From positions 1 through 28,503 of the IMG/VR virus record IMGVR_UViG_3300017739_000074: a stretch of 28,503 nt of DNA; one strand, given 5' to 3'. Below, in pieces: positions 2,089 to 27,443 of this stretch. Every line of letters starts with the position of its first letter. Position 1 is the first letter of the stretch. This DNA comes from a virus. Below the pieces are notes generated by a model. That model saw only the letters and a program-made list of their open reading frames with translations, was not told the DNA's origin and did no database searches. Both the position numbers and the translations under genes were made by a program.

Positions 2089-2101
2089 CAGTTACTCCTT
2101 G

Positions 2102-5100: not shown

Positions 5101-7219
5101 CTTGTACAGGATCAGCGGTATTTAGGGCGGCTGCAAACTCTTCAATCTGCTCTACGTTCTTAGTTTGCACGTCTCTGTTGAGTTTCTTTATCCATTGAAT
5201 ACCGGCAGGTACATTTCTCATACCACGGAAAGCTACGGACAGGATTGCTCCCACACCCTCCCCAAGTGCGGGATCACCGCCAATAGCTTGTGAGAAACCG
5301 CTTCCGGCGGCTGCTCCAATGACCATGAAGTTTTCTGAACCCACCATTTCTCTGTACAGAGGGTCAACGTCCCCTGCTGCAAGTTCCGCTAGGGCTTCGT
5401 TCTTTTCCAAGTCTAGGCGTTTCTCCAGCTTATCCAGACGTGCTGTTTGAGATGGGGATGGTACACCATTAGGGTTTGCTTTGATGGAGTCTGTCAGAGC
5501 AGATATCTGCGATTCTGTTTTTGTCTGTCGTGCTTTGATCTCAACGTATGCTGTGCGAAACTCAGGCTTTACGTTTGCAATCTCGTCCATAGTCCTGCCA
5601 GCGTTGATGCGACTGACCAGACCGACTCTGCCCCATCCGTAAGGCTTGTTGAACAAGAAGCCGTTTACAATATTATTCTGGGAGAATGCCAGCATTCCGC
5701 GACTAACAACGGATGCCTTGTTTTCGTTGATAAACTCTTCAAGAAACTCCGCACTATCTACGTCGTTACGGCCCTTTTTCTTTTCTGATTCGTAGTACAG
5801 CTTGAATGCGTTAAAGTCAGCGGCGGACAGGCTGCTCTTTGCTTTACGAATGAGACCACCCGGCATGATAATTTCTGCACCCTGAGACAGGACATTCGGA
5901 ATAAGACCGAATTGATACCTTGCTAGGTATTGTGCGGCAGGGTAGGAGATTCCTACGCCGTTGTCCGCAAGACGCAGCATGTAGTTCTCTGCGTAGTCAG
6001 GAATTATTGCATCATAAATTTCGTTACGTCCTGCACCACTGAATACAGAGGGGAGAGTTTCGTCGGTAACGTAAGGGATGATGGGATCATCTCCGAACGG
6101 ACCAGTTTTTCCTGATATGTAGGAGATTCCAAGACCGTACAACGCTGAGTTAGCAATGACGTTAATAGTATTAGCGGCAGTCTGTATGCCCTCACCAAAC
6201 AGGTATCCCCACGGAGCAAGCATAGTGTACTTCAGTCCCGCTCGTCCGTACTCGCTCAAAATTTTGTCGTAACCGAACGCACTAGTGGATAGCTGATAGT
6301 CAATTACTCCAAGACGCACCCTGTCACTTTTTAGTTCCGGATATGTTTCGGACTGCTCAATCATTGCGAGATTGAACGCTTTGATTGCCTCAATCTTCAT
6401 CTGATCCATCTCAGCGTAGTTTGCAAGACTTACAGTGAAGCTGTTAAAGCCATTCAGTCGCTGTGCTGTAGTCGGTGGGATAAGTCCGGCAAAAGGTTGC
6501 AGACGAAGACGCCGATCCTCAAAGTCTTCGGGCAGTGTCTGACGGGCAATCAGCGCCCGCTTCCACGGAATTTGACGTACCGCATCATCCGCACCCTCTT
6601 GAGTTTTGAAGAGGGCATCCGCACCCTCTACGTTCATTTGTCTGATCCTATCCTCAAGAGCGTCTGATCTCCACGGGACTTTTGTTCCGTCGGAAAGCAC
6701 AATACCATTAAAGCTGTTCAGCAAGCCTACAGTGGCAGGATTACTGAAATCCATAACCTCACGAACGTCTGTCAATTCGTTCATCTTGAGTGTGTCAATA
6801 TCTAGGTTGGGCTTCAGAATAGGACTGCCGCTCACCGGTCCCGTGACATCTGTTTTAACATCCATGCCAAAGGTAAACGCCTTCGGTAGAATGGGCAGAC
6901 CAAAATCGTCGTACACTACACCTACGTCGCCTTTGATAGACTCAGGAGGTTTCGTAAATCCAGAGGTAGACAGGTATTCTTCTGTGAACGTAGTCTTAGG
7001 AACAAACTCAGTAGTGCCCCCTGTTGTGGGGTCTCCCTGCCGAATAGTGGCAGGTCCATCAGAAGCGGGCGCATACAACGCAGCCCCTAACCCCAAGCTG
7101 GGATTGTTACGAAGAGACGACTGCATTCTCTGAAGAAAAGTTTCGCTACCTATGCTTGTCGGCGGCTGCTGTTGCTGATCGTCTTGCGTCGTATTATCTG
7201 GTACTGTTGGACCGGCCAT
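2102..7219 (-). CDS. Giant internal virion/DNA-ejection protein candidate (1705 aa)
   Basis: This is the longest gene in the window, preceded by TTGAGG at the end of the upstream gene. Its place, last but one in the structural operon and next to another giant, matches the T7 gp15/gp16-type internal core proteins of podoviruses that are ejected into the cell with the DNA. Visible features are a Gln/Pro-rich low-complexity start (residues 10-22) and a long hydrophobic/aromatic segment at about 331-370. A charged coiled-coil stretch lies at about 556-615, followed by an Ala/Gly-rich, possibly membrane-active stretch at about 629-666. The C-terminus is short and aromatic. I see no lytic transglycosylase motif (ES...GAxGLMQ), which T7 gp16 carries. 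The function is inferred from size and synteny; direct homology is not claimed. Confidence 0.72.
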   Translation of the reverse strand: MAGPTVPDNTTQDDQQQQPPTSIGSETFLQRMQSSLRNNPSLGLGAALYAPASDGPATIRQGDPTTGGTTEFVPKTTFTEEYLSTSGFTKPPESIKGDVGVVYDDFGLPILPKAFTFGMDVKTDVTGPVSGSPILKPNLDIDTLKMNELTDVREVMDFSNPATVGLLNSFNGIVLSDGTKVPWRSDALEDRIRQMNVEGADALFKTQEGADDAVRQIPWKRALIARQTLPEDFEDRRLRLQPFAGLIPPTTAQRLNGFNSFTVSLANYAEMDQMKIEAIKAFNLAMIEQSETYPELKSDRVRLGVIDYQLSTSAFGYDKILSEYGRAGLKYTMLAPWGYLFGEGIQTAANTINVIANSALYGLGISYISGKTGPFGDDPIIPYVTDETLPSVFSGAGRNEIYDAIIPDYAENYMLRLADNGVGISYPAAQYLARYQFGLIPNVLSQGAEIIMPGGLIRKAKSSLSAADFNAFKLYYESEKKKGRNDVDSAEFLEEFINENKASVVSRGMLAFSQNNIVNGFLFNKPYGWGRVGLVSRINAGRTMDEIANVKPEFRTAYVEIKARQTKTESQISALTDSIKANPNGVPSPSQTARLDKLEKRLDLEKNEALAELAAGDVDPLYREMVGSENFMVIGAAAGSGFSQAIGGDPALGEGVGAILSVAFRGMRNVPAGIQWIKKLNRDVQTKNVEQIEEFAAALNTADPVQAEKLILKAQYIIDLQNNAMDEGGIDPVLVKSSVAMLIGVAGIHGLEPMVRQVKPNDLRRMSPKLMNLIELHKEETLLLTQMRGAFNAMTQAGEYPKGSASAELQASMQESIKFLEKSVEQRTLDFQSIAVNAGAKFNEMIMDGTEKALSLTDLQRGELQSFEESYNALLELNIGIADLRIPGPYGAGAPLSTVVEVISEIRDGGMTRANSRANAALSLIGNPGQSTVDDAIAATGAAVAETLPEGGAKVKGRNVKIEAADVPRFDSGDKVHQLTTEIKRGADEEIAAAPFRILDRKQFFTSNEQFVGSEAYVDGTVILDDLISAASIETGIPLTDMAAGKSISKTVGSNVIRDLDFVSRTWFASRLDEGMDLDEVIANTVDLAKDDPSFAAQLAGLQMFTKSAPSVVAAMYQRHLGLQQGVSVPTVRLSYSQLRRLDSVISEMGARAGRLNNTAAASEYANINRRITGSPDARTASMYDQFIVDDPDGVPVNVGQLFVYDADGAFVPVSDVVTQGKRGWMDHKAIWYDDPNMKRWMGWGKRDAAVADPDYPLGIQIDAQWFDWNKVGSESYDIAGKFKSWRRGMGERHFGPNSSKEVMVGTPTGDAAVNSLRLSVAQWLLDSTEEGVLNFNQQDEVLLKIRDTFTGIDKDGNKVSLFPDIGSIVDDVREYGTETVPITIRKEAEDAVSNALTRQRNEWRSVQTRYESDIKEVISALESYTGRSVPAGSLFTEITNSGPQGIAELRRILKETPNASGRTFTDDELDVIFADLAIEAIEDNVFKPTGLMEVNPRDPSTMMNTYDMNMDAMSQMLGLSGPNQRAVASSVEKALGSARYKTAVKFFNLMSERSNSPLGGSSLSGVPRAFSINSYISRFYAINRDVIGPQYVGTEALIQRFRIRGFSLMQAALTDPDIGELFIDMLESGKPLPPDKDKILFDKLALVYVKFSDTLSREDPFASEKFRGEQGYTMIEGFPSVDNPALFPMYQGRLGSEFYPIGGN

Positions 7220-11658: not shown

Positions 11659-13005
11659 TTAACTCACTGGTCTGAATATGTTGTCTATAGTCTTGATGAT
11701 AAGAAAGTCTTCAAACTTTTCATCGTACATAGACTCATTCGCCGCTATTGACATGGATTGCATGGCAGCATTATGGGCACGAGCAAGGTTATTCTCTGAG
11801 ATTTGCAAGTTCCACGATGCCTGATCACGGTATGCTTGCCACAAATTAGCCAGTGCTTGTTGATTTACTCCCAGAACATTCATGACATTCTGCTGATTAG
11901 CAGCATTTTGCGCGGCAGTGTTAGACGTGTTTACGTTTCTCCTCCACTGTGCGTTACTCTGTGCTATCTGTGCAGTCATATTAGAGTTGAATTGCTCTCT
12001 TGCTGTTGTCATCTGAGAGTTAAATTGAGCCATAGAATTCTGCTGGGATACATTGTACTGCTCGACTGCCGCTTTTCTGTTTAGCGTTGCCGATTCTATC
12101 TGCGTACCTAGTTCAGCAAAGAACATGTCTACTTGCGCTTGAGTCTTAGCGTTAAGTTGAGCAGCAGCGTTCGCTTGTGCGGAATCCGACAGCATAGCCT
12201 GAAGCTTGCCTTGGTAATTTATAGTAGCGGATTGCTGCTCATTTGTCAAGTTTTGAACGTCTATAGTCAGAAACGATTTAGCATTGTTTGCAAGTGCTTG
12301 CTGACGAGCGTTAAGATTTGCTGTGTCCATCTGCGCGGATGCAGCAGCGTTCTGCAACACAGCCTGTTGTTGATTAGAAAGATTTTGTAGCTGGATAGTC
12401 GCGTACTTTTGCGCGTCCTGTGATGCTACTTGTATGCCGGACTCCATCATAGCTTGCGTGACAGCAGCCGCAGCTATAGAGGACGATCCTAGATTGCGCT
12501 GTTGCATTACAGCAGATACACGACGCACTGCGGGAGCAGCCCACGCAGGAAGCGGCTTGCCCTCTTCCAGACTCGCAAACAACTCTCCTAGCTGATATCG
12601 TGTAGTAGCCCGTGGATCAAGTTCCTGTGTTGCAGCTTCCGCAACGCTTTCCGGAGACAGTTGCCCTTGGGCTGCTTCCATTATAGCACCCGACGATACT
12701 TGACCTTTGGCAGCAACGGAGTCAGACACCTCTTCCGCTTTTACTGCTTCTACTTTAGGTGCATCTGTTTTTTCAGGAGCAGCCTGATCAAACTTATCGG
12801 CGTCAATAGCAGCAGCGCCTTCTGTTGCTGTCATTTCTGGGAGACGGCCAATATTCTCGTCTACGATTTCTCCCGGTTCAACTTTTATGTCTGTAGGCGT
12901 TACGGTCTGATCGTCAGGCAGAGTTGTGGTCTTGGCTCTTTCCGCTTGCTCTTCGATCAAAGCCTTTTCAAGGTCTTCGCCTGTTTTACCTGTTAGTTCC
13001 GCCAT
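11659..13005 (-). CDS. Ala/Gln/Asn-rich internal virion protein candidate (448 aa)
   Basis: I chose ATG 13005 (MAELTGKTGEDLEKAL), preceded by AGGT, rather than an upstream in-frame ATG that overlaps the previous gene. The first ~110 residues are acidic and Thr/Ala/Val-rich. From about residue 165 the protein is a long helical, Ala/Gln/Asn-rich region with repeated patterns such as QNLSNQQQ, QNLTNEQQ and NARQQALANNAKSFL, probably an extended coiled-coil or helical bundle. This type is common in marine podovirus-like genomes just before the giant ejection proteins. It is comparable in place to T7 gp14, but no homology is claimed. Little Cys, no transmembrane segment and no enzyme motif are visible. 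Confidence 0.7.
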   Translation of the reverse strand: MAELTGKTGEDLEKALIEEQAERAKTTTLPDDQTVTPTDIKVEPGEIVDENIGRLPEMTATEGAAAIDADKFDQAAPEKTDAPKVEAVKAEEVSDSVAAKGQVSSGAIMEAAQGQLSPESVAEAATQELDPRATTRYQLGELFASLEEGKPLPAWAAPAVRRVSAVMQQRNLGSSSIAAAAVTQAMMESGIQVASQDAQKYATIQLQNLSNQQQAVLQNAAASAQMDTANLNARQQALANNAKSFLTIDVQNLTNEQQSATINYQGKLQAMLSDSAQANAAAQLNAKTQAQVDMFFAELGTQIESATLNRKAAVEQYNVSQQNSMAQFNSQMTTAREQFNSNMTAQIAQSNAQWRRNVNTSNTAAQNAANQQNVMNVLGVNQQALANLWQAYRDQASWNLQISENNLARAHNAAMQSMSIAANESMYDEKFEDFLIIKTIDNIFRPVS

Positions 13006-13006
13006 G

Positions 13007-13207
13007 TTACCTGATTCCCATAAATACAGACACAACCATAGCTACCACTAAAACAGTGCTTCCCATGATCATCGCCTCAAGACGCCACATACGCTTGTCC
13101 AAGCTGTCAAGTCTCTCTTGAACAGCCGTATAGCGTAGAGCGCACTCTTTTTCGTGTGCCTCAAGTTCCATCTGTGTCTTGAGTACGGGTTCCACAGTCA
13201 TCTTCAT
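13007..13207 (-). CDS. Small membrane protein with coiled coil and C-terminal TM (66 aa)
   Basis: The first ~45 residues form a charged amphipathic helix with heptad-like spacing (HEKECALRYTAVQERLDSLD). A single strongly hydrophobic segment follows (MIMGSTVLVVAMVVSVFMGI) and runs to the C-terminus. This tail-anchored layout resembles the XhlA/holin-accessory class and small phage membrane proteins often placed outside the main lysis cassette. The start could be ATG 13207 or ATG 13201; the latter has AGG at better spacing. Whether it takes part in lysis or in ejection is unknown. Its place among tail and ejection genes makes either possible. Confidence 0.68.
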   Translation of the reverse strand: MKMTVEPVLKTQMELEAHEKECALRYTAVQERLDSLDKRMWRLEAMIMGSTVLVVAMVVSVFMGIR

Positions 13208-13209
13208 GC

Positions 13210-13575
13210 CTATGACTTAGGATTGTCCGTCTTGATCTGCGCTACCTTAGTCTGCCACGCATCAAGTCCATTCTCTGTAATGTATTCAATCTGCTGGTAA
13301 ACGTCCCCATAAGCTTCAGCACGTGCCTTGAGCCATGCAGGACGATCATCATTAGTGGAGGGGTTGGTATCCAGCGCGGCTGTGCGAGTTGCCCCTGCGG
13401 ACAAGAATGAAGGCGCTGTTCCTCCCGTCTTTAAGTAGGGGGGAGCCATGTTAAATACGGCTTGATCAAACTCTGCCTCTGTCATATTCTCATCAAGTTC
13501 AATGAAGGACCAGCTTTCGTCTGACCAAGTAATTTTAGCTACCCCGTTTGATATTTCTGAAACGCTATACTGCAT
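13210..13575 (-). CDS. Tail-fibre-associated small protein, assembly-chaperone-like (121 aa)
   Basis: A strong AAGGAGAAGG precedes the ATG, which overlaps the upstream gene by 11 nt. The N-terminal half contains beta-prone, Trp-rich sequence (ITWSDESWSFIELDE). The C-terminal half has the pattern AYGDVYQQIEYITENGLDAW followed by a Lys-rich end (QIKTDNPKS). This Y-x4-Q-x-E...G-x-x-x-W...IK..P-K pattern is common to small proteins encoded next to phage tail fibres and thought to assist fibre assembly or sit in the tail. The location two genes after the adhesin fits. The assignment rests on motif recall and context, not on a search. Confidence 0.55.
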   Translation of the reverse strand: MQYSVSEISNGVAKITWSDESWSFIELDENMTEAEFDQAVFNMAPPYLKTGGTAPSFLSAGATRTAALDTNPSTNDDRPAWLKARAEAYGDVYQQIEYITENGLDAWQTKVAQIKTDNPKS

Positions 13576-14281
13576 CTTTCAGTTCCTTCTCCTTTTTTAG
13601 GAAATCACCCCTAAACATAGTAGTGGTGTATTCGTGTTTCTCAGACCACTCTTCGCGAGTGCAAATTTCTACTTCTATGCTGGGTTTTCCGTTAGGCCAG
13701 TACAAGTACGCAAGAGGAGTGCCACGAGAAATGTGCATGTAGCCATCCTTGCCAAACGACTTCTCCGGATCAAGCATGTAGTTAACTCCCAGTATGGTAT
13801 ATAGCTTGGGGTGCATAGTCCAAACCCCGGTCATAGCCGTCATAGGAATCCGATTGTCTTGATGATACATGGGATCAAAGAACAAACATTCTGTGCTTTC
13901 TTCGGGAATCAATACCGCTTGAAAATCAAGCTTGATACTCATGTACTTACCCCACTCCGGGGCCATCTGAACTTCAAAATTGAATCCGCTAATCTTATTA
14001 AACGGAGACACATCTTCGCCAGTGCCTTGCGCCATCTTCCATCCTACCCCCTTTTGCGGATCGTAATGGATAGATATGTCCATAGGGGCGCGAACTAAGT
14101 GGGCATTCTTGAATAGATGCACAAATGCGGGACATTCTCTCGCCGTTTTAATATGATCTTGTATTGAAACATCTCTAGCCACTTTTAGATTCTTGTACCA
14201 ATCCGGATACGCTGGAGTAATCCACTGATCGTATGTTTCTGCAAAGTAAGTTTGAGGCGTTACAATTTTTACGGTTGTCAT
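13565..14281 (-). CDS. Conserved hypothetical protein of the tail-fibre cluster (238 aa)
   Basis: The ATG overlaps the adhesin stop (ATGA), so translation is coupled. The protein is mixed alpha/beta and rich in Trp, Tyr, Met and Pro. Examples are AYPDWYKNLKVAR near residue 30, the strand-like segments PMDISIHYDP and YMSIKLDFQAVLIP, and a run around 138-152 with MYHQDNRIPMTAM. No signal, transmembrane segment or known catalytic signature is evident. The context between the Gly-rich adhesin and a chaperone-like protein suggests a role in fibre maturation, attachment or host-surface binding, but I do not recognise the family. The protein is compact and soluble-looking. High gene confidence, low functional confidence. 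Confidence 0.72.
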   Translation of the reverse strand: MTTVKIVTPQTYFAETYDQWITPAYPDWYKNLKVARDVSIQDHIKTARECPAFVHLFKNAHLVRAPMDISIHYDPQKGVGWKMAQGTGEDVSPFNKISGFNFEVQMAPEWGKYMSIKLDFQAVLIPEESTECLFFDPMYHQDNRIPMTAMTGVWTMHPKLYTILGVNYMLDPEKSFGKDGYMHISRGTPLAYLYWPNGKPSIEVEICTREEWSEKHEYTTTMFRGDFLKKEKELKDAV

Positions 14282-15501
14282 CCAGTGTTCCCTGTTACTG
14301 TGCCGTTGTTGGTGTAGCTGCTTAGAGTGCTAAATCCTCGTATGGACAAACCCGCTGCTGCTCCGCTGCTGGCACCACTGCCACTACTGCCGCCGCTGCC
14401 GTTGCTGTGGTTGCCGTTTCCGCCTGTAGAACCCGTGCTTCCAGTTGCTCCGCTAGAACCCGCCGCACCGTAAGCACCGCCAGTGCCGCCAGTACCTCCC
14501 GTACCGCCTGTGCCACCGGAACCAGCATTTGTACCGCCGCCGGAACCACCGGAACCACTAGAACCGCCGGAACCGCTTGCAGCAGATTGGCTGTATCCTT
14601 GACCTGCGCCGCCACCGCCACCGCTGCCGCCGCTGCCACCAGCACCGCCGTTGAAGTAGTTGTATCCAGTGAGACTTTCTTCTCTCTTAATCATGTACCA
14701 AGTATACCCGGAATGTGACGCCCAAGCACCACCTTTTGTATACCGATAGCTTCCAATAGTTATTTGGCTGCTATGATTGTTGGTTGCAATCGTATTACTA
14801 TAATTCGATCCACAGGTAAAGTACCAACTCAACGAAGGACCAACGTAGTATAAGGCGGGGTTACATCCTGAATGAGTATTACCCGCATATCCTTGCCAGC
14901 CAAGGTATCCGCTATCATTTCCGTAGTAACTGTACGACGTTGACCCTTGACCACCAGTACCGCCAGTACCGCCAGCGCCACCAGCACCACCACCACCGCC
15001 GCCGGAACGAATTGTTCCATTGTTAACAAGGGTGCATGCAACATCTATCTGAAGGGCATCGCCACCCGCGCTACCAGCAGCACCACCAGCACCTGTCAGT
15101 GTGCCGTTGTTGGTAATCGTCAATCCACCGGCTAACCCGCTGTCTATCTGCAGTGCTTCTTGACCTGTGCTGGTTGCACCTAATTCGACGCCGTTGTTGA
15201 TGACGATCTCTTTAGGGTAGTCAACCGCGTAGTCGTCACCGAAGACTGAAGACGCATCTTGATTCGTTGCGCCGCTGTCATAAGTTTTGCGAAAGCCTTT
15301 TGCTTGAGAGTAGAAATCAGCAACTTGTATTTCGCCACTTGCCGGTACGTTTGCAGCCAAGTTAGTAGCGCCATTGTTTCCTGCTTTTGCACGAACCAGT
15401 GAGCCGCCCCGGTACAAGTCAGAAAATTTCACTTGTCCGGAACCGCCAAATTCGTCCCGCATCTGCGAGAATTTTAGTTCGCCACTACCCGTTAGAGCCA
15501 T
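14278..15501 (-). CDS. Gly-rich tail adhesin candidate (407 aa)
   Basis: AAGGAG lies 7 nt before the ATG, and the gene overlaps the S74 fibre end by 17 nt. The N-terminus carries two KFS motifs (GELKFSQMRDEF and GQVKFSDLY), a pattern seen at the start of several phage baseplate/fibre proteins. Three NNGT strands (about 131, 160 and 398) suggest beta-helix turns. Between them lie two Gly-rich tracts (166-186 and 285-383; GGTGGTGG and GSGGSSGSGG types) separated by an aromatic, Cys/Trp/Tyr-rich insert (187-284). Tracts like this form polyglycine-II helices in known T-even-type adhesins. The role, binding the host receptor at the fibre tip, is inferred from architecture and from the neighbouring fibre gene. 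Confidence 0.72.
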   Translation of the reverse strand: MALTGSGELKFSQMRDEFGGSGQVKFSDLYRGGSLVRAKAGNNGATNLAANVPASGEIQVADFYSQAKGFRKTYDSGATNQDASSVFGDDYAVDYPKEIVINNGVELGATSTGQEALQIDSGLAGGLTITNNGTLTGAGGAAGSAGGDALQIDVACTLVNNGTIRSGGGGGGAGGAGGTGGTGGQGSTSYSYYGNDSGYLGWQGYAGNTHSGCNPALYYVGPSLSWYFTCGSNYSNTIATNNHSSQITIGSYRYTKGGAWASHSGYTWYMIKREESLTGYNYFNGGAGGSGGSGGGGGAGQGYSQSAASGSGGSSGSGGSGGGTNAGSGGTGGTGGTGGTGGAYGAAGSSGATGSTGSTGGNGNHSNGSGGSSGSGASSGAAAGLSIRGFSTLSSYTNNGTVTGNTG

Positions 15502-17104
15502 TTTCCAACTCCTTTACCCGTGCCGACAGTTCTTTTACAGCTTCGATAAGAAGAGCGTGAAGCTGATCGTAAGCAACTACGTCGTACTCTGTTTCCTCAT
15601 CTCCTGTCTTCAAGGGAAGGGTGGTTTGACTGACAGCAGAAGGTAACACCTGTGCCACTTCAGTAGACATAACACCAGCAGATGCTCCGCCGTGCTTGTA
15701 GTCAAAGGTGTAACCAGTAAGCTGCTCTACCTTTGCGACTGCATCAGTGACTTGTTCCACGTTTTCCTTGAGTCGTGGATCAGAAGCAACAGTCGTGGAG
15801 AAGGCAACAACGTCGCCCTCAACGTGCAAGTCGCCGTCGCTTTCAAGACGCATGTCATTCGCACCGTTGACGTAGAAGTCCATCTGCGTGTTATTCGTCC
15901 ACGCGATATAGTCTGTGCTGTCAAGGCCAATGTTGCCGCTGGCATACATCGTGCCAGTTACTGCGATACCGCCAGTCCCTTTACCGGACAGACCCAGATC
16001 GATATTAGTGTCACCACCTGTAGCAGCTATAGACGGAGCGTTGCCTGTAGCGGCGTTAGTAACGTCAATCTGATTTACTGCAGACGAAGTAGTTTGGAAG
16101 ATGATTTGCTCATTCCCGTTTTCGTCACCAATAAAGTGTGCATCATCAATCAGAATGTTTTGCGAGTTTGTATCTAAGTTTCCGCCAAGCTGCGGGCTTG
16201 TGTCAGTAACTATGTTGATCGCAGTAAGATCAACTGTTGCAAAACTTAGTGTGCCACTGCCGTTTGTCTGCAAGAACTGGCTTGCACTGCCATCAGCCGT
16301 AGGATGAGACAGCCCGTCAATGACTACTGCACCCGACCCTTTGGGGGTCAGTGTCAAGCCAATGTTGGTATCGTCACCTGTAGCTGAAATAGACGGGGCG
16401 TTACCCGTTGCAGCGTTGGTAATATCGATCTGATTGACTGCAGATGAAGTGGTCTGAAAGATAATCTGCTCGTTGCCATTTTCATCGCCAATGAAATGCG
16501 CGTCGTCGATCAAAATGTTGTGTGAGTTTGTATCTAAGTTGCCAGCCAACTGCGGTGTGCTATCGTTAGACAAGTCAGTGTCAACTGTAGCATATGAAAG
16601 AACACCCGACCCATTAGTCTGCAGAAATTGTCCGTTACTTCCGTTTGATGACGGAAGCTGAAATGTGACGTTGCCACTGTAAGCAGAGTGTGGCGGCGAT
16701 TGAATTGTGACTTTGTGTGCGTTGCTCACTTCGCAGTAAAGATCGATTGCAGGAACTGCGCTCGACCCGGAACGTACTTCAATCTTTGCATCCTTGATAG
16801 TCGTGCCCGCAGAAGAGCCATCGCCACCTGCGTTCATCTGCCCGACTTGGAATGTTCCCGAATCTTGCAACTTGGCAGGAGTAACAGCATCATCTGCCAG
16901 CTTGGCTGTGGTGACGTTTGCGTCAGCTATGCCAGCAGTAGCAATCTGCGGTCCCTCTCCCGTCGTGCCATCGTGCGAGTGCCCAGACGAGCCATTAAAT
17001 GCAGACTGGACAGCATCAAACTCGCCGTCAAGATCGGATGCGTTGATTACGTTTCCGTCTGCGATATTGTTACCAGTATCGTTTCTGGTGTAACCTGTAC
17101 CCAT
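15485..17104 (-). CDS. Tail fibre with C-terminal S74 intramolecular chaperone (539 aa)
   Basis: GGAGGAGA precedes the ATG by 6 nt. The N-terminus (MGTGYTRNDTGNNIADGNVI) is the fibre-attachment type typical of marine phages. The middle is beta-rich with a long internal duplication (residues 182-257 and 302-377) and FLQTNGSG at 160 and 277. The C-terminal ~100 residues are a peptidase S74/ICA chaperone. SDPRLK at 441-446 gives the Ser441-Lys446 dyad that cleaves the chaperone off after trimerisation, followed by the usual YDQLHALLIEAVKEL coiled coil. Cleavage just before Ser441 is expected. It forms the trimeric adsorption fibre and precedes the Gly-rich adhesin, with which it overlaps. Confidence 0.9.
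   Translation of the reverse strand: MGTGYTRNDTGNNIADGNVINASDLDGEFDAVQSAFNGSSGHSHDGTTGEGPQIATAGIADANVTTAKLADDAVTPAKLQDSGTFQVGQMNAGGDGSSAGTTIKDAKIEVRSGSSAVPAIDLYCEVSNAHKVTIQSPPHSAYSGNVTFQLPSSNGSNGQFLQTNGSGVLSYATVDTDLSNDSTPQLAGNLDTNSHNILIDDAHFIGDENGNEQIIFQTTSSAVNQIDITNAATGNAPSISATGDDTNIGLTLTPKGSGAVVIDGLSHPTADGSASQFLQTNGSGTLSFATVDLTAINIVTDTSPQLGGNLDTNSQNILIDDAHFIGDENGNEQIIFQTTSSAVNQIDVTNAATGNAPSIAATGGDTNIDLGLSGKGTGGIAVTGTMYASGNIGLDSTDYIAWTNNTQMDFYVNGANDMRLESDGDLHVEGDVVAFSTTVASDPRLKENVEQVTDAVAKVEQLTGYTFDYKHGGASAGVMSTEVAQVLPSAVSQTTLPLKTGDEETEYDVVAYDQLHALLIEAVKELSARVKELENGSNG
15974..16201 (-). repeat. Internal duplication in tail fibre, copy 2
   Basis: Second copy of a ~76-residue module of the tail fibre (residues 302-377, starting TSPQLGGNLDTNSQNILIDD). 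It lies exactly 120 residues (360 nt) after the first copy. The protein is nearly identical over its core, while the DNA has many third-position changes. Confidence 0.88.
16334..16561 (-). repeat. Internal duplication in tail fibre, copy 1
   Basis: First copy of the module (residues 182-257, starting STPQLAGNLDTNSHNILIDD). It shares the segments AHFIGDENGNEQ and IIFQTTSSAVNQID with copy 2. Confidence 0.88.
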
Positions 17105-17107
17105 TTT

Positions 17108-18631
17108 TTATCTCCTCCCGTAGGTCGCAAATTCCAAAGTTGCAGCGTCTACGGTAAATACTGCATCTGTGGTGGTTCCTGTCGTTTCGTATACGAGAGA
17201 AACCGAAGTTCCGGAACCAACAGTCTGTACATCAAATACAGTGTTCGGCTTACTCCCGAAAGTAGATGTTCCGAATGTACCGGAACCGTATGTAATTACT
17301 GTGCCCGCCTCGTTAGACAGCGTAGTGCCTTCGGGCTGAACAGATTCGGGCTGATCAAAGTCGTACTTCAGTGAGAACTTCAAATCCAGTACGCCGTTAA
17401 CATCCACATACGTCGTGCCTTTGTATATGGTCTTACGCACATTAGGATCACTCAGTGGAACAAACGGAGTGGCAAACGTCGCCACAATGTTAGACCCCGA
17501 AAAAGTGTTCCCCTGTTCCATCTGATATACGAACCCATCACTACCCCCGAAGTAGATTTCTTCTGCGGACCCGCTGTACTCCGACGTTACGCAGAATACT
17601 TTGAACCCTCTAAGTTCGTTAAAGGCCACATTGTCCTGCAACTGTGTGGCGACTATTCCCTTAGAAGCGTCGTTTGTTGACGCCGATCTAAATCCGAAAA
17701 TTCTGTATTGACTCTTCTCTCTAACTACTGTACTAGCAAACGCGGTGCTATTAGATACAAGGTCAAGAATCTCCGCCTGTATAGTCTTCGACACAGCAGC
17801 AAGACTAAAGTCTCCAATCTTGTCAGTGGCAGAAAACAGTCTCAGTCCATCCGGACCCAAGAACATGATATCGCCGCCTATTTCCTGTACAGTGTCTTCA
17901 GCTACCGCGCCTAAGTCGCGGGACACAGGGACCAGTTGGAAGTCTGCTTGGCTAGACCCTGCCAGCCTGTGAATGGTTGTTTCTCCGAATATAATAAGCT
18001 GATCTCTAAAGACAATAAGATCAGTCACAGTATCTGCTACGTTTATTATACCACCACCACTTGCCGGTGTAAAGTCATCATCCTCGTAGGGTGCCGAAAA
18101 AACTACGTTTTCTCCGTTGGCTAAAAAGATGTGGTTCTTAAAATTGACTGCATGTGATGCGCCCGACGTATCCGCTGGAAGGCTAGAAAGCTGCGAAAAG
18201 ACTGATCCAGTGAACCTAAAGGGCTTACCAGTGCCATCGACTGCAAGCAGCTTCTCTGTGCCGTCGAAGTTGTACTTTAAAAAACGTACCCTGCCACTAC
18301 CGCCAAGGGTTATACCTGCGCTGCTGTAGGCGGCGTTGTCACTGATAGATGTCCACCCACTCCCCGTTGACCGAAACAGATCGTTGCCACGGGCTGCGTA
18401 GACGTGGTTGCCGTACTTAATAAGTCCGCGAATATTGTTACTATTGCTGACAGCAGCGGTATCAAACTTGGCGTATCCTTCTACTCTGCGATACCCGCCA
18501 AATACCGACGGCTCGTAATTAACCAGTACACGTGCTGATCCCGGAGCCTGTATACCCTGCTGATAGGGTGACAGGTTACTGATTAGACCTCCCTTAAACT
18601 CAAAGGGGTATGTCTGCCAACGATCTGGCAT
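17108..18631 (-). CDS. Tail hub/nozzle protein, P22 gp10-like (stabilisation protein)
   Basis: The 507-aa protein begins MPDRWQTYPFEFKGGLISNL. It has a repeating beta-sheet pattern with blade-like segments such as IRGLIKYGNHVYAARGNDLF, NHIFLANGENVVFSAPYEDD, DLIVFRDQLIIFGETTIHRL and GDIMFLGPDGLRLFSATD. This fits a beta-propeller-like tail hub as in the podovirus gp10/gp12 class that closes the tail below the adaptor ring. Length is close to P22 gp10 (about 470 aa). The gene starts inside the stop of the adaptor gene (TAATG), the order found in P22- and T7-like phages. The assignment combines fold pattern, size and synteny. Confidence 0.75.
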   Translation of the reverse strand: MPDRWQTYPFEFKGGLISNLSPYQQGIQAPGSARVLVNYEPSVFGGYRRVEGYAKFDTAAVSNSNNIRGLIKYGNHVYAARGNDLFRSTGSGWTSISDNAAYSSAGITLGGSGRVRFLKYNFDGTEKLLAVDGTGKPFRFTGSVFSQLSSLPADTSGASHAVNFKNHIFLANGENVVFSAPYEDDDFTPASGGGIINVADTVTDLIVFRDQLIIFGETTIHRLAGSSQADFQLVPVSRDLGAVAEDTVQEIGGDIMFLGPDGLRLFSATDKIGDFSLAAVSKTIQAEILDLVSNSTAFASTVVREKSQYRIFGFRSASTNDASKGIVATQLQDNVAFNELRGFKVFCVTSEYSGSAEEIYFGGSDGFVYQMEQGNTFSGSNIVATFATPFVPLSDPNVRKTIYKGTTYVDVNGVLDLKFSLKYDFDQPESVQPEGTTLSNEAGTVITYGSGTFGTSTFGSKPNTVFDVQTVGSGTSVSLVYETTGTTTDAVFTVDAATLEFATYGRR

Positions 18632-19311
18632 TACACCGCCCGTGCGTAGATGTTTTCATTTACGAGTAGCGTACGCATTTGTTTTACTCCGTCGTCAAAC
18701 TTCCTAAGTGAAAGCTGCGCCGATTCTAAGTTGTCTCTGAACATGTAGGCGTGATACATGGCCCCGTCCACGATAACGTGTTTAAACCTGAAAGGAATAG
18801 TGGGAACATCATCGTGTAAAGATAAGTCTGCAGGAAACATAAAAAATTCGTACTCAATGGTATATGCCTTATCCGGCATGGGTGCGACTATTATATCTCC
18901 ATCCTGAGATCGTACGACAAACTCCGGAACAGTACCTTTAGTGGCATCGGTCTCAAACTCTTGGTCGATAAACTTTGACAGGTATTCTGAGTAACTAAGT
19001 ACACCCAGCTTACGGCCTTCTCCTAGAGACAATGATTCGTTACGTTGAATCCTGACAGTATCCAAGTCTGCGTACTTTGCTTCATCAGGCAGAGGATATC
19101 TCATCTGACCCGCAGTAAGAGTAAGTTCGTCTGTGTTGTGATTGAACTGCCAGTTGAAGTGCTTCTGATTAACGTCACGAACTGCAGCGTTGATGCTGTC
19201 TTTGATCTGAGAATAGAATCCCGTCGATGTTGCAAAAGTAGTAGATGAAAGTTCTGTCTCGTTCAACCGACGACACACCTCGTTGACCAATGCTAAGTAA
19301 TCGTAAGCCAT
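18631..19311 (-). CDS. Head-tail adaptor (gp4/gp11-type tail tube protein)
   Basis: The 226-aa protein starts MAYDYLALVNEVCRRLNETE. An N-terminal helical part has SQIKDSINAAVRDVNQKHFN (about residues 31-50). A beta segment follows with LTLTAGQMRYPLPDEAKYAD and a segment SYSEYLSKF near residue 107. The latter part has FRFKHVIVDGAMYHAYMFRD and RKFDDGVKQMRTLL helices. This organisation, with helices docking under the portal plus a tail-facing beta domain, is typical of podovirus adaptor proteins (T7 gp11, P22 gp4 class; about 170-230 aa). It sits directly before the hub gene, as expected. Assignment from pattern and synteny; confidence in a connector role is good. Confidence 0.75.
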   Translation of the reverse strand: MAYDYLALVNEVCRRLNETELSSTTFATSTGFYSQIKDSINAAVRDVNQKHFNWQFNHNTDELTLTAGQMRYPLPDEAKYADLDTVRIQRNESLSLGEGRKLGVLSYSEYLSKFIDQEFETDATKGTVPEFVVRSQDGDIIVAPMPDKAYTIEYEFFMFPADLSLHDDVPTIPFRFKHVIVDGAMYHAYMFRDNLESAQLSLRKFDDGVKQMRTLLVNENIYARAV

Positions 19312-21328: not shown

Positions 21329-21588
21329 CAGCGTGTCTTTCGATATGCGCGAGTCTTCTTCGCTATCTTCTTGGGCTGCTTGGCCACTTGCTTACCGGCG
21401 CGAGTAGCTTTCCGCTTGGCTTTCGTGGTGGCTGCGTACTCCGCCGACGATAGTGCCTTAATGGCACGAGACGGTAGATACCGCTCCCCGGTTGCTTTCG
21501 GACCTTGGGTGGACGGTTTGCCACTTTTAGTCCTCCACTTTTGCTTAGTCCACGCTTTCAAAGAGCGTTGGCTCTTCTTCAGTGCCAT
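21328..21588 (-). CDS. Basic small phage protein (86 aa), DUF5872-like pattern
   Basis: Two adjacent ATGs occur; the second (21588) lies 7 nt after GGAG and gives MALKKSQRSLKAWTKQKWRT. The protein is about one third Lys/Arg. Conserved landmarks are SLKAWTKQKWRTKSGK, ATGERYLPSRAIK, SSAEYAATTKAK and a QPKKIAKKT tail. I recall this pattern as a widespread phage small-protein family (DUF5872-like), of unknown function, present in many marine phages. A nucleic-acid-binding role is plausible from charge alone. It overlaps the upstream gene by 44 nt in another frame. Start choice is based on spacing. Confidence 0.75.
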   Translation of the reverse strand: MALKKSQRSLKAWTKQKWRTKSGKPSTQGPKATGERYLPSRAIKALSSAEYAATTKAKRKATRAGKQVAKQPKKIAKKTRAYRKTR

Positions 21589-21796
21589 CATTCATCTCCA
21601 TTGTTAGCGTAGCCAGTGCGGCTAATTTATCTTGGGCGTCTCCCCACTTTTTAAGCGCTGTATCCATCTCTTCCAGCAGACCCGGATGTTCACCCACGCC
21701 AACAGCATTTTTAAGGTAAATTGCGAATACAAACTCTGCATCAGCCATCTCCGCTGTATATTTATGTTTTAGTGCTTCGATAGCAAGCTTCTGCAT
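21545..21796 (-). CDS. Small acidic helical protein (83 aa), first gene after an internal promoter
   Basis: AGAGGGATGTAAG precedes the ATG. The protein is largely helical (MQKLAIEALKHKYTAEMADA; EEMDTALKKWGDAQDKLAAL) with an acidic end (NDGTEEEPTLFESVD). KYxAEMADAEFxxxxYL...GVGEHP is a recurrent pattern among small phage proteins in structural clusters. The function is unknown. It is the first gene downstream of the extended -10 promoter candidate at 21819-21847 and is separated from the preceding gene by a 58-nt gap, unusual in this tightly packed region. Its last 44 nt also encode the N-terminus of the basic 86-aa protein. Confidence 0.7.
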   Translation of the reverse strand: MQKLAIEALKHKYTAEMADAEFVFAIYLKNAVGVGEHPGLLEEMDTALKKWGDAQDKLAALATLTMEMNDGTEEEPTLFESVD

Positions 21797-21818
21797 CTTA
21801 CATCCCTCTAAATACTTT

Positions 21819-21847
21819 ATTTTATCACAAATACACTAACTATGCAA
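21819..21847 (-). promoter_or_regulatory. Sigma70-type promoter with extended -10
   Basis: On the minus strand TTGCAT (21847-21842) and TAAAAT (21824-21819) are separated by exactly 17 nt, and TGA directly precedes the -10 (TGn extended -10). It lies in a 58-nt gap, one of the few gaps in the operon, and points at the small helical protein and the tail genes. Confidence 0.6.
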
Positions 21848-21854
21848 GCAAAAT

Positions 21855-23117: not shown

Positions 23118-23265
23118 CTTTCTCTCCCGTGTATTTAGCTTCGCCTTCTTCATAGTAGTATCCGCCCGACGTGTCGCCTTCATAGTAGTAATGGCGTTCG
23201 ATAGGCTGCTGTTTCAAAGAGTGTTCTGATGCGGGCATAGCTTTGCGGGGGGGAATGTAGCGCAT
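23092..23265 (-). CDS. Tyr-rich small protein (57 aa)
   Basis: ATG 23265 overlaps the previous TAA (TAATG). The frame encodes MRYIPPRKAMPASEHSLKQQ followed by two short repeats, HYYYEG and GYYYEEG, encoded by a direct DNA repeat (TACTACTATGAAG). It then ends with a charged tail. It fills the space between two well-supported genes, and the coupled start plus biased composition support it. Function and family are unknown. The Tyr triplets could mediate protein contacts. Confidence 0.58.
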   Translation of the reverse strand: MRYIPPRKAMPASEHSLKQQPIERHYYYEGDTSGGYYYEEGEAKYTGEKDASDRKRT

Positions 23266-23558
23266 TAGATGTTCTTAAACCTCTTTGTAATGTCGCGCTT
23301 CGTAGCTGTACCCGGAGTCACGTACAGACCTCCGCCTCCGCCGCTACCTCTAGTGGTTCTTGCAGTGCTTTTACCATCTGCGCCTGACTCAGACAGTTTC
23401 GCCATACCCATAGCAGCAAAGCCTGTTCCTGCGAGTGCTGTTGCTGTTGCTGCTTTAAGAGTAGCGTTGGAAGTACGCATAGCCTGTTCTTCAGACGCAG
23501 ATACGCTACCCTGCTTTTCCTTACTGTCTTGTGCTGATCTTCCTCTAGCCTCGCTCAT
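23265..23558 (-). CDS. Hypothetical protein with Ala/Gly-rich segment (97 aa)
   Basis: The ATG overlaps the lysozyme stop (TGATG) with GGGAGAG upstream. The N-terminal 28 residues are charged (MSEARGRSAQDSKEKQ). A moderately hydrophobic Ala/Thr/Gly segment follows (residues 33-52, TLKAATATALAGTGFAAMGM) and might contact membrane or pack as a helix. Next come a GSGGGGG linker and the tail YVTPGTATKRDITKRFKNI. No known family is recognised. Its position directly after lysozyme could suggest a lysis link, but nothing in the sequence demands it. Confidence 0.6.
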   Translation of the reverse strand: MSEARGRSAQDSKEKQGSVSASEEQAMRTSNATLKAATATALAGTGFAAMGMAKLSESGADGKSTARTTRGSGGGGGLYVTPGTATKRDITKRFKNI

Positions 23559-24043
23559 CAGAACTCTCCCTTTTCCATCGCTACAGAAAGCTTAATCGCC
23601 CGCGATTTTACTTGTTTTGCCCAACGCGAATCGAGCATCTCTCGTGCGGCGGCGTCGAACTTGCTCTCCTGTATCGCATTCCACATGCGCTTGAATTTAC
23701 AGAGACGGGGTACGCCCATGTTAAAAGCCATATCCATCAAGATCAGTTGCCGTACCGAATCTAATTCGTGAACAATGGGCTTCACCCGACACAGTTCTTC
23801 TTCAACAATCTTGATGTCATTCAGTGCGAGATATCGTGCATCGGCCTCTGTGATGCCATGCTCGTATACGACAGCCATAGATGGAATGTCCATGTGGTCA
23901 AGTTCTTCTTTACTGATGCCGCGATCCTTGAGGTTGCGTCCGATACCGATTGTGTCAATACCCAGCGTGTCTTGATAAACAGTGAGGACCATGCCCTCGT
24001 GCTGAATAACCTTATCTAGAAAGTGAGATGTGTTATACTTCAT
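23558..24043 (-). CDS. Endolysin, T4-type lysozyme (muramidase)
   Basis: ATG 24043 has AAGGA 7 nt upstream. The 161-aa protein matches T4 lysozyme in length (164 aa) and active site. E16 lies in VIQHEG, D25 in YQDTLG and T31 in IDTIGIGRNL, with the same spacing as E11-D20-T26 in T4. The C-terminal lobe has MAFNMGVPRLCKFKRMWNAI and AAREMLDSRWAKQVKSRA, the usual helices of the family (W...Q...RA). It cleaves the glycan of peptidoglycan during lysis. There is no signal peptide, so release requires the holin encoded just upstream. It is the core of the lysis cassette 23558-24643. Confidence 0.93.
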   Translation of the reverse strand: MKYNTSHFLDKVIQHEGMVLTVYQDTLGIDTIGIGRNLKDRGISKEELDHMDIPSMAVVYEHGITEADARYLALNDIKIVEEELCRVKPIVHELDSVRQLILMDMAFNMGVPRLCKFKRMWNAIQESKFDAAAREMLDSRWAKQVKSRAIKLSVAMEKGEF

Positions 24044-25074: not shown

Positions 25075-25299
25075 CTACGCCTTTACAAGCTTATAGCCTT
25101 TTGCTTTTGCAGCAGCACGAATTTGTGCAAGAGTCATCGTGGGCTTCTTGCCACCGCGTGATGCACCCTTTGATTTTGTCTTGCCGCCTTTTGCGTAGCC
25201 CTTTGACTTCATAGCCGTGCGACCACCTTTAGCCATGCCCTTCGACTTCATGCGTCCGCCACGAGCCATGCCTTTACTCTTCATCATCATCTTCTTCAT
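25075..25299 (-). CDS. KSKG/GG repeat basic protein (74 aa)
   Basis: ATG 25299 has GGAGA 6 nt upstream and lies inside the end of the previous gene. The N-terminal 51 residues hold four copies of KSKGxAxGG(R/K) at 7-16, 18-27, 31-40 and 42-51. The C-terminal ~20 residues (TMTLAQIRAAAKAKGYKLVK) form a small helical motif like the SAP-type or helix-extension ends of other basic phage proteins. Over 40% of residues are Lys, Arg or Gly. DNA/RNA condensation or packaging is a reasonable inference. Longer in-frame starts lack a ribosome binding site. The repeats are also nearly repeated in DNA. Confidence 0.78.
   Translation of the reverse strand: MKKMMMKSKGMARGGRMKSKGMAKGGRTAMKSKGYAKGGKTKSKGASRGGKKPTMTLAQIRAAAKAKGYKLVKA
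25147..25281 (-). repeat. Four tandem KSKGxAxGG coding repeats
   Basis: Codons 7-51 of the basic protein: KSKGMARGGR, KSKGMAKGGR, KSKGYAKGGK and KSKGASRGGK, each about 30-33 nt. Confidence 0.8.
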
Positions 25300-25963
25300 A
25301 ATCGCTCTCCGCGTAAAGGTTATCAAATACCCTAGATGTATCACTTACATAGTTAGGGTCTTGTTTAGAGTGGTGTACCCACTGACTAGGTGCAAAGTCC
25401 GGCGGACCATCACCTGTTACAAACCAAGCAGGGTTTGTGACCCGTACCCGATTATTAGGAAGGGCTACTATATTGCCCGTGTATTCTCCTGCGTCTAATA
25501 ATTCAAGCACGTGACTTTGTTTGTGCTGTGCAGGATCGTCGGCTACTTCTGTTCCGGTGTAGTCAACGGTGAAGTAATACTTTGCGGGGTAGAACTCCCC
25601 GTCAATCTTTGCAAGCCACGGACTTGGTGTGGCTCTGTCGAGGACGTATACTGAGTGGTGATGTGACTGACAGTCCCACGGCTGTGCCAAATAAGTAGGA
25701 AGAGGTTTCGGCCAGTCATCTAAGGGTGTATCCCCGACTAGGGCGGTGAGAGGCATACGCGCCCACATTGCTCCGCCGTGTACATTATCTTCTTCTTCAC
25801 ATCCCGTAAACAACACTTGAAAAGACATTGTTCTCATCGGTAGTGTTGTTACGCCAATCACCATAGCGTGTAAAAATTCACCATGATATCTGTCGTGATT
25901 GGTTGTGTATTCTCTGCGTACCCACGCTTTAAAATAGGGCACATTGCTAGTGATGTAATTCAT
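25274..25963 (-). CDS. Conserved phage hypothetical protein (229 aa) downstream of an internal promoter
   Basis: ATG 25963 has GGAGA 7 nt upstream; a longer start at 26011 would fall within the promoter -10, so it is rejected. The protein starts MNYITSNVPYFKAWVRREYT and contains HGEFLHAMVIG, HGGAMWARMPLTALVGDTPL, PLPTYLAQPWDCQSHHHSVY, PWLAKIDGEFYPAKYYFTVD, DDPAQHKQSHVL and GNIVALPNNRVRVTNPAW. It ends in an acidic tail (DYEEDDDEE). I recall this family as broadly present in marine phages immediately after the capsid genes; its function is unknown. It is rich in His, Trp and Cys, so metal binding or an enzyme is possible. It is the first gene after the candidate promoter. Confidence 0.78.
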   Translation of the reverse strand: MNYITSNVPYFKAWVRREYTTNHDRYHGEFLHAMVIGVTTLPMRTMSFQVLFTGCEEEDNVHGGAMWARMPLTALVGDTPLDDWPKPLPTYLAQPWDCQSHHHSVYVLDRATPSPWLAKIDGEFYPAKYYFTVDYTGTEVADDPAQHKQSHVLELLDAGEYTGNIVALPNNRVRVTNPAWFVTGDGPPDFAPSQWVHHSKQDPNYVSDTSRVFDNLYAESDYEEDDDEE

Positions 25964-26008
25964 TAGGGAATCTCCGTTTGAAGGATTTATCCCGGCAGGG
26001 GATTCCTG

Positions 26009-26037
26009 CATATATCACGTATAAAAAGAGATGTCAA
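26009..26037 (-). promoter_or_regulatory. Strong sigma70-type promoter after head genes
   Basis: On the minus strand TTGACA (26037-26032) is a perfect -35. It is 17 nt from TATATG (26014-26009), and TGA precedes the -10 (extended -10). It lies in a 103-nt gap, right after a G/C hairpin, and would drive the 229-aa gene and the downstream basic, lysis and tail genes. Confidence 0.68.
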
Positions 26038-26054
26038 GGGGGCATGTGGCCCCC
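26023..26054 (-). terminator. Possible weak terminator hairpin after decoration gene
   Basis: The minus strand shows GGGGGC-CACAT-GCCCCC (6-bp stem, 5-nt loop; 26054-26038). A T-rich stretch with TTTTT at 26027-26023 begins 10 nt further on. The U-tract is offset, so it may be only an attenuator, or unrelated to termination. It overlaps the -35 of the promoter. Confidence 0.35.
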
Positions 26055-26066
26055 CCGACAAGTTTG

Positions 26067-26489
26067 TTAGGCGAACGATGCCGCCGTCTCTGCAGTACCC
26101 ATCTCTGCAATCACTGCGAACACACGTACCTTACCGTCGAAGGTTGCCGTGTTGGCAATCAGATCGATGGTATCGGCAGCGGTGTACAGTTTTGCAGTAC
26201 CGGCTGCATTGTTGATCTCGTGGCCGGTAGCAGTACCGTCAAGAGCAGCAACGTAGAGATCGTCGTCTGCGTCATCACCAAGGTCAAGGACCGGAGAACC
26301 GGTCGATGCTACGGTAAGGACTTCCACACCCGCCATGAGGACAAGAGTGTTTGCCTTCATTTCGAAAACCTCAACGGAGTCCGAAGTGGTGAGGCTGGTA
26401 GACGAGAAGTCAAGAACGACTTCTACGATCTGCGGCTTGATGCCAAGAGGGACGCCTGCGACAGCGCCAGTTACAGTGTAAGTAGCCAT
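26067..26489 (-). CDS. Probable head decoration/structural protein (140 aa)
   Basis: AGGGAGG precedes the ATG by about 8 nt. The protein is beta-rich: MATYTVTGAVAGVPLGIKPQ, IVEVVLDFSSTSLTTSDSVE, MKANTLVLMAGVEVL, DDADDDLYVAALDG and ATFDGKVRVFAVIAEMGTAE. Acidic and low in Lys, it suits a virion surface protein. It directly follows the major capsid gene, as decoration or head-completion proteins usually do. The pattern (IKPQ...F...SDxxEVF..KAxTLVLxAGVEVLT) recurs in marine phages, annotated structural. A hairpin and promoter follow its stop. Confidence 0.7.
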   Translation of the reverse strand: MATYTVTGAVAGVPLGIKPQIVEVVLDFSSTSLTTSDSVEVFEMKANTLVLMAGVEVLTVASTGSPVLDLGDDADDDLYVAALDGTATGHEINNAAGTAKLYTAADTIDLIANTATFDGKVRVFAVIAEMGTAETAASFA

Positions 26490-26504: not shown

Positions 26505-27443
26505 TTAGTCAGTCTTGATGACACCCTGAACGATGGCTTCTGGGCGAATGACCTTACGGCCAAACACGTGGAGACCACGAACGATGTCACTAAAGGTTTC
26601 AGTTGAACGTACAACTTCAGTCTTCGCGATATGCGAAGCAGTTGCAGTTGAGGACATATGACCGCCCATGACAACAAAGTCATTGGTAGTGTCCTGAGCA
26701 GTGATCGTCACAACGTCAGTTCCTGAGTTGTTCAGGGCAGTGGACTTGTAACAGTTAAAGCCAGCAATGTTGCCAGCCATTACAAGACCGTTGCGAAGCG
26801 GCGTGGTGCCGTCGCCAGTTACCTGAACTTCTGCGAACTTGGCACCAGCCTTGAACGCATTCTCGTAGAAGATCGGAGGTGCTACAAACCAGCGGTTCTC
26901 TTCTGGAACAGACTGATCGTCGAGGATACGAGCCATTGTCATCAGCAAGTTTACAGCAGCATCTTCGTTACCACTACCAGTGATATCGATAGGTGCGCCA
27001 GCAGTACCGACAGAAGTGCCAGTGTTACCAGCGTTGTCTGCCATGTTCTGCAGGATGTTGGCGTCGTACTTGCGCTTCAGCGAGTATGCACCCGAAGAAG
27101 TGGCAAGAGCCTCAAAGTTAACGTGAGACTGACGCTCTTCAATGTCGTCAATCTTAAATGCAAAAGCGTTTGCCTGATCGACAACCATAGTTGTCTGATC
27201 GTCAGCAAGGTCTTGCGGGTTTACTACTGATCCACGAGCATACGAAGAAACCGTGATTGTCGGTTCCTTGATGATGCGAACAGTATCGCCAAAGTTCTCA
27301 ATTTCGCCAGCGTAGTCGGTATTCGTAATATCTTCTGCAACCGAAGCGCGACGGAAGAATTTGAGGACTTTCTGGCTGAAAATTTCCGGTGTAAAGTTAC
27401 CGGAAGGCAGGTTGTTATGACCTGACGCGCTATTAAAAGCCAT
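26505..27443 (-). CDS. Major capsid protein
   Basis: AGGAAGGA precedes the ATG. The 312-aa protein starts MAFNSASGHNNLPSGNFTPE, with FSQKVLKFFRRASVAEDITN and YAGEIENFGDTVRIIKEPTI. This is the N-arm and E-loop region of a HK97-fold capsid protein: ...DTV.I...P..TV..Y..G... Further on come AFAFKIDDIEERQSHVNFEA, RYDANILQ-type P-domain helices, and a segment RWFVAPPIFYENAFKAG. The C-terminal A-domain has AGFNCYKSTALNNS and VRGLHVFGRKVIRPEAIVQG. It lies between scaffold and decoration genes, as expected. It is close in size to T7 and marine podovirus capsids. Confidence 0.88.
   Translation of the reverse strand: MAFNSASGHNNLPSGNFTPEIFSQKVLKFFRRASVAEDITNTDYAGEIENFGDTVRIIKEPTITVSSYARGSVVNPQDLADDQTTMVVDQANAFAFKIDDIEERQSHVNFEALATSSGAYSLKRKYDANILQNMADNAGNTGTSVGTAGAPIDITGSGNEDAAVNLLMTMARILDDQSVPEENRWFVAPPIFYENAFKAGAKFAEVQVTGDGTTPLRNGLVMAGNIAGFNCYKSTALNNSGTDVVTITAQDTTNDFVVMGGHMSSTATASHIAKTEVVRSTETFSDIVRGLHVFGRKVIRPEAIVQGVIKTD

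Follow-up and report, generated by a model that had tools for sequence, protein, structure and literature searches.

A predicted terminator stem that also carries the -35 box of a putative downstream promoter in the late operon of an HMO-2011-type phage

Introduction

Why should a gap of 103 nt, holding both a hairpin and a promoter-like sequence, stand between the head genes of a phage and the remainder of its late operon? The gap lies in a 28.5 kb stretch of viral DNA, called the window here and meaning the whole of the DNA analysed. A first-pass annotation, made from the letters alone, had proposed that the hairpin and the promoter divide the operon at this point, raising the output of head proteins and restarting transcription with host RNA polymerase.

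Comparison with relatives partly supports this interpretation as a whole and adds to it: the promoter's -35 box is itself one arm of the stem, on the 3' side, the promoter is tied to a lysozyme block, and a second promoter is located further down the operon. In a large group of marine phages, the sequence that would end transcription behind the shell-protein genes seems to double in part as the start signal of the next genes, in an arrangement that is strongly conserved. We interpret the element as a composite terminator-promoter in which the DNA of the terminator would also supply the -35 box of the lysis-block promoter, and we put the probability of this reading at roughly 0.75.

The proteins of the window match those of HMO-2011-type podoviruses of marine alphaproteobacteria, and its coat, scaffold-like, adaptor and stabilisation-type genes occur in the same order as in HMO-2011-type phages. 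The window covers part of the late operon of such a podovirus; the replication module falls beyond the window record. SAR116, Roseobacter-group and SAR11 bacteria are the hosts of the nearest isolates, and the host of the window phage is presumably an alphaproteobacterium. HMO-2011-type phages have been described as dominant and widespread in the ocean. The words promoter and terminator are absent from the main text of the main comparative paper on these phages (PMC9038755).

Gene context of the gap

The genes that bear on the argument are the following.

26505..27443, minus strand: major capsid (coat) gene, the upstream head gene (phrog_267 major head protein, E = 1.8e-59)
26067..26489, minus strand: putative capsid cement or decoration gene, the last head gene before the gap (AlphaFold model with pLDDT 84 and fold matches)
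25274..25963, minus strand: g1, the first gene of the inserted block (phrog_3704)
23558..24043, minus strand: phage lysozyme (endolysin) gene in the block (Pfam PF00959, E = 1.1e-9)
18631..19311, minus strand: tail adaptor-like gene (phrog_10775 tail protein), whose homolog lies directly after the head genes in block-less relatives

The gap had been placed immediately after the capsid and decoration genes. The product of 26067..26489 gave no PHROG or Pfam match, and its function was approached through an AlphaFold model; the alignment behind this model contained neither the HMO-2011 row nor one row that was not the exact locus protein. The best PDB fold matches of the model were the GP4 capsid (8h89_J), the KHP30 capsid (7dn2_1) and the Pam1 capsid (7eel_H), and the trimeric cement protein of KHP40 (7dou_4) came fifth. 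Since the predicted fold matches capsid-associated proteins, the label “end of the head genes” appears justified, in agreement with the placement of the gap.

The length of 103 nt was borne out as well, as the true start of g1 is the ATG at 25963, which is preceded by a Shine-Dalgarno sequence (GGAG) and opens a conserved N-terminus (MNYITSN). A longer open reading frame from 26011 was rejected as the gene start: it begins inside the -10 box and is an artefact, given the conserved start and the GGAG at 25963. The family of g1, phrog_3704, carries the label “ferredoxin”; no Pfam family backs this label for the g1 protein.

The block consists of small genes, among them the lysozyme gene, that are inserted between the head and tail genes, and the adaptor-like gene follows about 6.7 kb after the gap. 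The description of the rest of the operon as nearly gapless holds for most of its length, but there are two other gaps, at 23184-23264 and 21797-21854, and the latter contains a conserved promoter.

A predicted terminator shares its bases with a candidate promoter

Read on the minus strand, the gap begins with the TAA stop codon of 26067-26489 and continues with CAAACT, TGTCGGGGGGGCCACATGCCCCCTTGACA (26060-26032), the 17-nt spacer TCTCTTTTTATACGTGA and TATATG (26014-26009). Its elements are as follows.

26032..26060, minus strand: predicted terminator stem-loop TGTCGGGGGGGCCACATGCCCCCTTGACA, with 12 pairs; nearly all relatives have a hairpin in this position
26032..26037, minus strand: -35 box TTGACA, doubling as the outer stem arm on the 3' side; TTGAC is nearly invariant in relatives
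26021..26031, minus strand: T-rich stretch TCTCTTTTTAT, the U-tract and first part of the promoter spacer; six of the eight bases after the stem are T
26016..26017, minus strand: TG of the extended -10 (TGn); TG is found in 41 of the 45 promoter-bearing relatives
26009..26014, minus strand: -10 box TATATG, 17 nt from the -35 box; TATAAG in most relatives

The minus-strand hairpin followed by TTGACA, 17 nt and TGnTATATG was thus confirmed in the sequence. The hairpin had been said to abut TTGACA; the hairpin itself is present, but the hexamer does not adjoin it and lies instead inside the 12-pair stem. In the RNAfold structure TGTCGG pairs with TTGACA, with two G-U pairs included, and TTGACA is therefore predicted to form the outer 3' arm of the terminator stem.

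With 12 pairs, eight of them G-C, and a loop of 5, the window hairpin has the G+C-rich stem and short loop of an intrinsic terminator. A scan of 20 kb returned 29 terminator-like sites, and this hairpin had the highest rank; RNAfold of 126 nt gave -41 kcal/mol (z = -3.9). The window also has the U-tract of an intrinsic terminator, which about a quarter of the relatives lack; U-tracts in relatives average 3.4-4.3 T in 8 bases, and 12 of 45 promoters have three or fewer T in the first nine bases of the spacer.

Because about a quarter of the promoters are without a good U-tract, the hairpin may stabilise rather than terminate in those relatives. One possibility for the element in general is that the hairpin mainly stabilises the 3' end of the head mRNA, as a barrier to RNA decay or as a processing end, with little termination, while the promoter just adds lysis-block transcripts. 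A stem that persists although U-tracts are mediocre overall, and although about a quarter of the promoter-bearing relatives have none, is consistent with this; however, it is unlikely given that six of the eight bases after the stem are T in the window and that the outer TGTC/GACA pairs set the base of the stem directly at the T stretch.

The promoter had been described as near consensus. This is correct for TTGACA, the 17-nt spacer and TGn; the -10 box, on the other hand, matches TATAAT at only 4/6 positions, lacks the last T and is weaker than the consensus of the relatives. The window promoter scored 12 (6 for TTGACA, 4 for TATATG and 2 for TG), a value reached or exceeded in 2 of 3,900 shuffles, with score thresholds and motif patterns that were set after the sequences had been viewed. 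Because TATATG matches at only 4/6 positions and the last T is absent, the promoter is missed by a strict sigma70 scan.

The -35 box fits the Sinorhizobium promoter consensus CTTGAC-N17-CTATAT (PMC2873474). Most alphaproteobacterial sigma70 promoters lack a thymine at -7, and CarD has been proposed as a helper (PMC8407463); the -10 box of the window, and usually that of the relatives, also has no thymine at -7 and is accompanied by the TG extension. The element is therefore like an alphaproteobacterial sigma70 promoter (PMC2873474, PMC8407463) in its CTTGAC, 17-nt spacing and -10 box without -7T, and unlike it in the strong TGn extension and the overlap with a terminator stem.

Conservation among relatives

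Relatives were gathered by similarity of the coat or g1 protein, not by the promoter pattern, and deduplication left 195 gaps. A hairpin (at least 6 bp with at least 4 G-C pairs) was found in all 52 block-bearing gaps and in 90 of the 92 gaps with the adaptor gene directly behind the head genes, compared to 4.7% of shuffled gaps. It was present in every isolate inspected (HMO-2011, CRP phages, HTVC phages, and Rhizobium and Sinorhizobium phages). In the isolates HMO-2011, CRP and HTVC the adaptor gene mostly follows directly after the head genes and the gap holds the hairpin without the promoter.

Under a strict 17-nt criterion, TT[GT]A[CT]-17-(-10) occurred in 45/52 block-bearing gaps (1.7% when shuffled), and a further promoter with a spacing of 18 (L070) brings this to 46/52. 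The usual form in the 46 is TTGAC-17-(TGn)TATAAG. The block-bearing L007, L040, L052, L055, L074 and L077 lack the promoter and keep the hairpin. The 92 block-less gaps contained no convincing promoter. Among the 143 gaps outside the 52 block-bearing ones the promoter pattern was matched in 11: seven real-looking cases, on contigs of the same group with no block gene detected downstream, and four weak ones (TTTAC/TTTAT with a poor -10 box) in other phages.

The first-pass annotation had named, as a test, whether the hairpin and the -35/-10 boxes are conserved while flanking bases vary; we observed that both are conserved and that the spacer varies. Mean information was 1.64 bits per column for the -35 box, 1.33 for TGn and 1.40 for the -10 box, as compared to 0.66 for the spacer. 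When a pattern scan was allowed spacings of 16, 17 and 18, the ratio of 17 to 18 was 65:1 in this phage group; on contigs not tagged as belonging to the HMO-2011-type group, the same scan gave 17:18:16 = 15:13:6. A single untagged contig (L201) has a strong hairpin and looks like the same element.

These data bear on the simplest alternative, namely that the hexamers arose by chance in an AT-rich gap. The strict scan would be compatible with it, as it returned 20 sigma70-like sites in the window compared to 20.9 in shuffles, the window promoter not being among those listed. However, the -35 box, the TG, the -10 box and the 17-nt spacing are conserved over dozens of diverged relatives. This comparison refutes a chance match, to which we assign almost no probability.

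A fixed -35 box pairs with a variable 5' arm

Pairing was counted from single minimum-energy folds because a MAFFT alignment of the hairpins mis-registers the 5' arm owing to its G runs. On average 4.0 of the 5 bases of TTGAC were paired with the 5' arm, compared to 2.4 after shuffling of the 5' flank. The 5' arm achieves this in several ways (TGTCGG, TGTCAG, AGTTGA, TCAA, and GTC with unpaired TT opposite TT), many of them involving G-U pairs. As TTGAC is nearly fixed while the 5' arm varies and yet pairs, selection probably acts on both the RNA hairpin and the -35 box. The pattern is as expected, and points to an arrangement where the promoter fixes one arm and the RNA hairpin constrains the other.

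The variety of 5' arms, including those with G-U pairs, is more in keeping with an RNA hairpin than with a DNA palindrome. It could be speculated that the inverted repeat around the -35 box is instead a DNA operator for a regulator, and a second inverted repeat that ends in the -35 box of L010 and L020 would suit this idea. Three observations make it very improbable: the length of the loop and the centre of the repeat differ between relatives, the G-U pairs of the 5' arms would be mismatches in DNA, and phages without the promoter have a hairpin in the same position.

The side group to which L010 and L020 belong (also L009, L016 and L017) is built differently. In these relatives a GGGGCC terminator hairpin stands apart in the gap behind the cement gene, and the -35 box forms the end of the second inverted repeat, GTCAACATC...GGTGTTGAC, and is thereby placed at the foot of a stem.

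The promoter, the lysozyme block and a second promoter

The promoter co-occurs with the lysozyme block, and the hairpin is more widely spread, being found also without the promoter. Mapped on the coat tree, the block needs a single change and the promoter nine. There is one informative independent pair, and an independent-pairs test of the promoter-block link on this tree was therefore uninformative. The coat tree implies one origin with retention and later losses of the promoter; given a single origin on that tree, the association does not count as independent evidence.

The position of the block varies within this phage group. In G006 (L296) the block is at about 867-5545 and the head genes at 12828-15513 of the reversed locus, that is, away from each other. 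The head-adaptor gap of G006 has the hairpin without the promoter.

One of the other gaps of the operon contains a further promoter.

21819..21847, minus strand: predicted second internal promoter TTGCAT-17-TAAAAT (TGn) before the gene 21545-21796, in the gap 21797-21854

Among relatives, 35/39 score at least 9/12 at this site, always with a spacing of 17, while the window copy scores 8; the -10 box of the relatives is mostly TATAAT. No hairpin was noted at this promoter in the relatives compared. Two relatives without the first promoter, L040 and L055, have the second one in front of their homolog of 21545-21796. The absence of -7T at the first promoter, as opposed to TATAAT at the second, predicts that the two differ in their dependence on the host factor CarD.

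It is possible that promoter and terminator work uncoupled, and that their overlap reflects compactness: the lysis block would have brought the promoter, which was then fitted to a terminator already in place. The composite terminator-promoter includes this as a special case, one without a hand-over of polymerase. The wider spread of the terminator as compared to the promoter, the lack of a hairpin at the second promoter and a coat tree compatible with a single gain of the block all favor it. On the other side, the -35 box has stayed in the stem through large divergence with the 5' arm re-adapting, although this indicates dual selection and is compatible with no coupling. We consider the uncoupled arrangement to have slightly less than an even chance.

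Proposed function and comparison with known systems

Under the composite reading, the most likely course of events is that head transcription partly stops and that the lysis block is then transcribed from a fresh start by host RNA polymerase. The RNA hairpin and the T-rich stretch at the end of the head transcript would stop part of the host RNA polymerases, while the DNA of the 3' arm of the hairpin would provide the -35 box for a promoter of host sigma70 type with an extended -10. A new transcript would begin about 30 bp further on and include the lysozyme block and then, by continuation, the tail genes. The expression of head and of lysis/tail genes would thus be set separately. From sequence comparison we infer termination at the hairpin, activity of the promoter and an effect on protein levels; the raised head-protein output and the restart of transcription proposed earlier have the same standing.

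In E. coli in vitro, polymerase can remain on the DNA after intrinsic termination and begin again at a nearby promoter (PMC6978380, PMC11347151). These cases resemble ours in having a sense promoter within tens of bases, and differ in being E. coli in vitro systems with separate elements, whereas here the bases are shared. A polymerase that has just terminated may slide to the adjacent promoter and be reused there, which the distance of tens of bases between stem and promoter would favor. It is doubtful that a relay of this kind was selected, with the -35 box kept in the stem and the terminated polymerase handed on by short-range sliding. If it were, transcription of the lysis block would follow that of the head genes, and the promoter may also be occluded when read-through is heavy.

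The late terminator T-phi of phage T7 is located directly behind the capsid gene and lowers the transcription of what follows. The analogy to T7 made in the first-pass annotation is sound for a post-capsid terminator: here too, as judged by sequence, a hairpin and U-tract come directly behind the capsid genes. It does not extend beyond the terminator, as T7 uses its own RNA polymerase while the promoter here is of the host type, with its -35 box inside the terminator stem.

At the E. coli frd-ampC locus, the transcription signals of neighboring operons share sequence, and the shared terminator is downstream of the promoter as an attenuator. The likeness is in the overlapping terminator and promoter regions of adjacent units; here, in contrast, the -35 box is in the stem and the start site is beyond it. 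Phage morons are autonomous cargo with a promoter of their own. The block is similar, being inserted with its own promoter between conserved morphogenesis genes, but it differs in carrying a lysozyme gene, and no dedicated terminator was identified after it. We found nothing specific on a terminator overlapping a downstream -35 box in the open-access papers to which the search extended, so that this is weak evidence of absence.

The comparison provides a concrete map of candidate start and stop signals for the HMO-2011-type late operon. With two signals on the same bases and the partner arm re-adapting, the element would be a natural template for testing the reuse of terminated polymerase.

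The leader downstream of the promoter

A further feature is located just after the likely start of transcription.

25989..26003, minus strand: predicted leader stem-loop AUCCC-CUGCC-GGGAU

A leader stem-loop of at least 4 pairs was predicted in 63% of relatives compared to 29% of shuffles, and a GG at positions 16-17 after the -10 box is conserved. We also considered whether the module is a dispersed repeat, and rejected this: no genome has more than two matches to CTTGAC-N17-19-TATAA, and GCCGGGRRTAAAYMC, the leader motif, is present as a single copy in nearly every locus that has it. The window and its relatives share a conserved leader here, in which the predicted stem-loop CCC(C)-UGCC-GGG(G) precedes UAAACCC.
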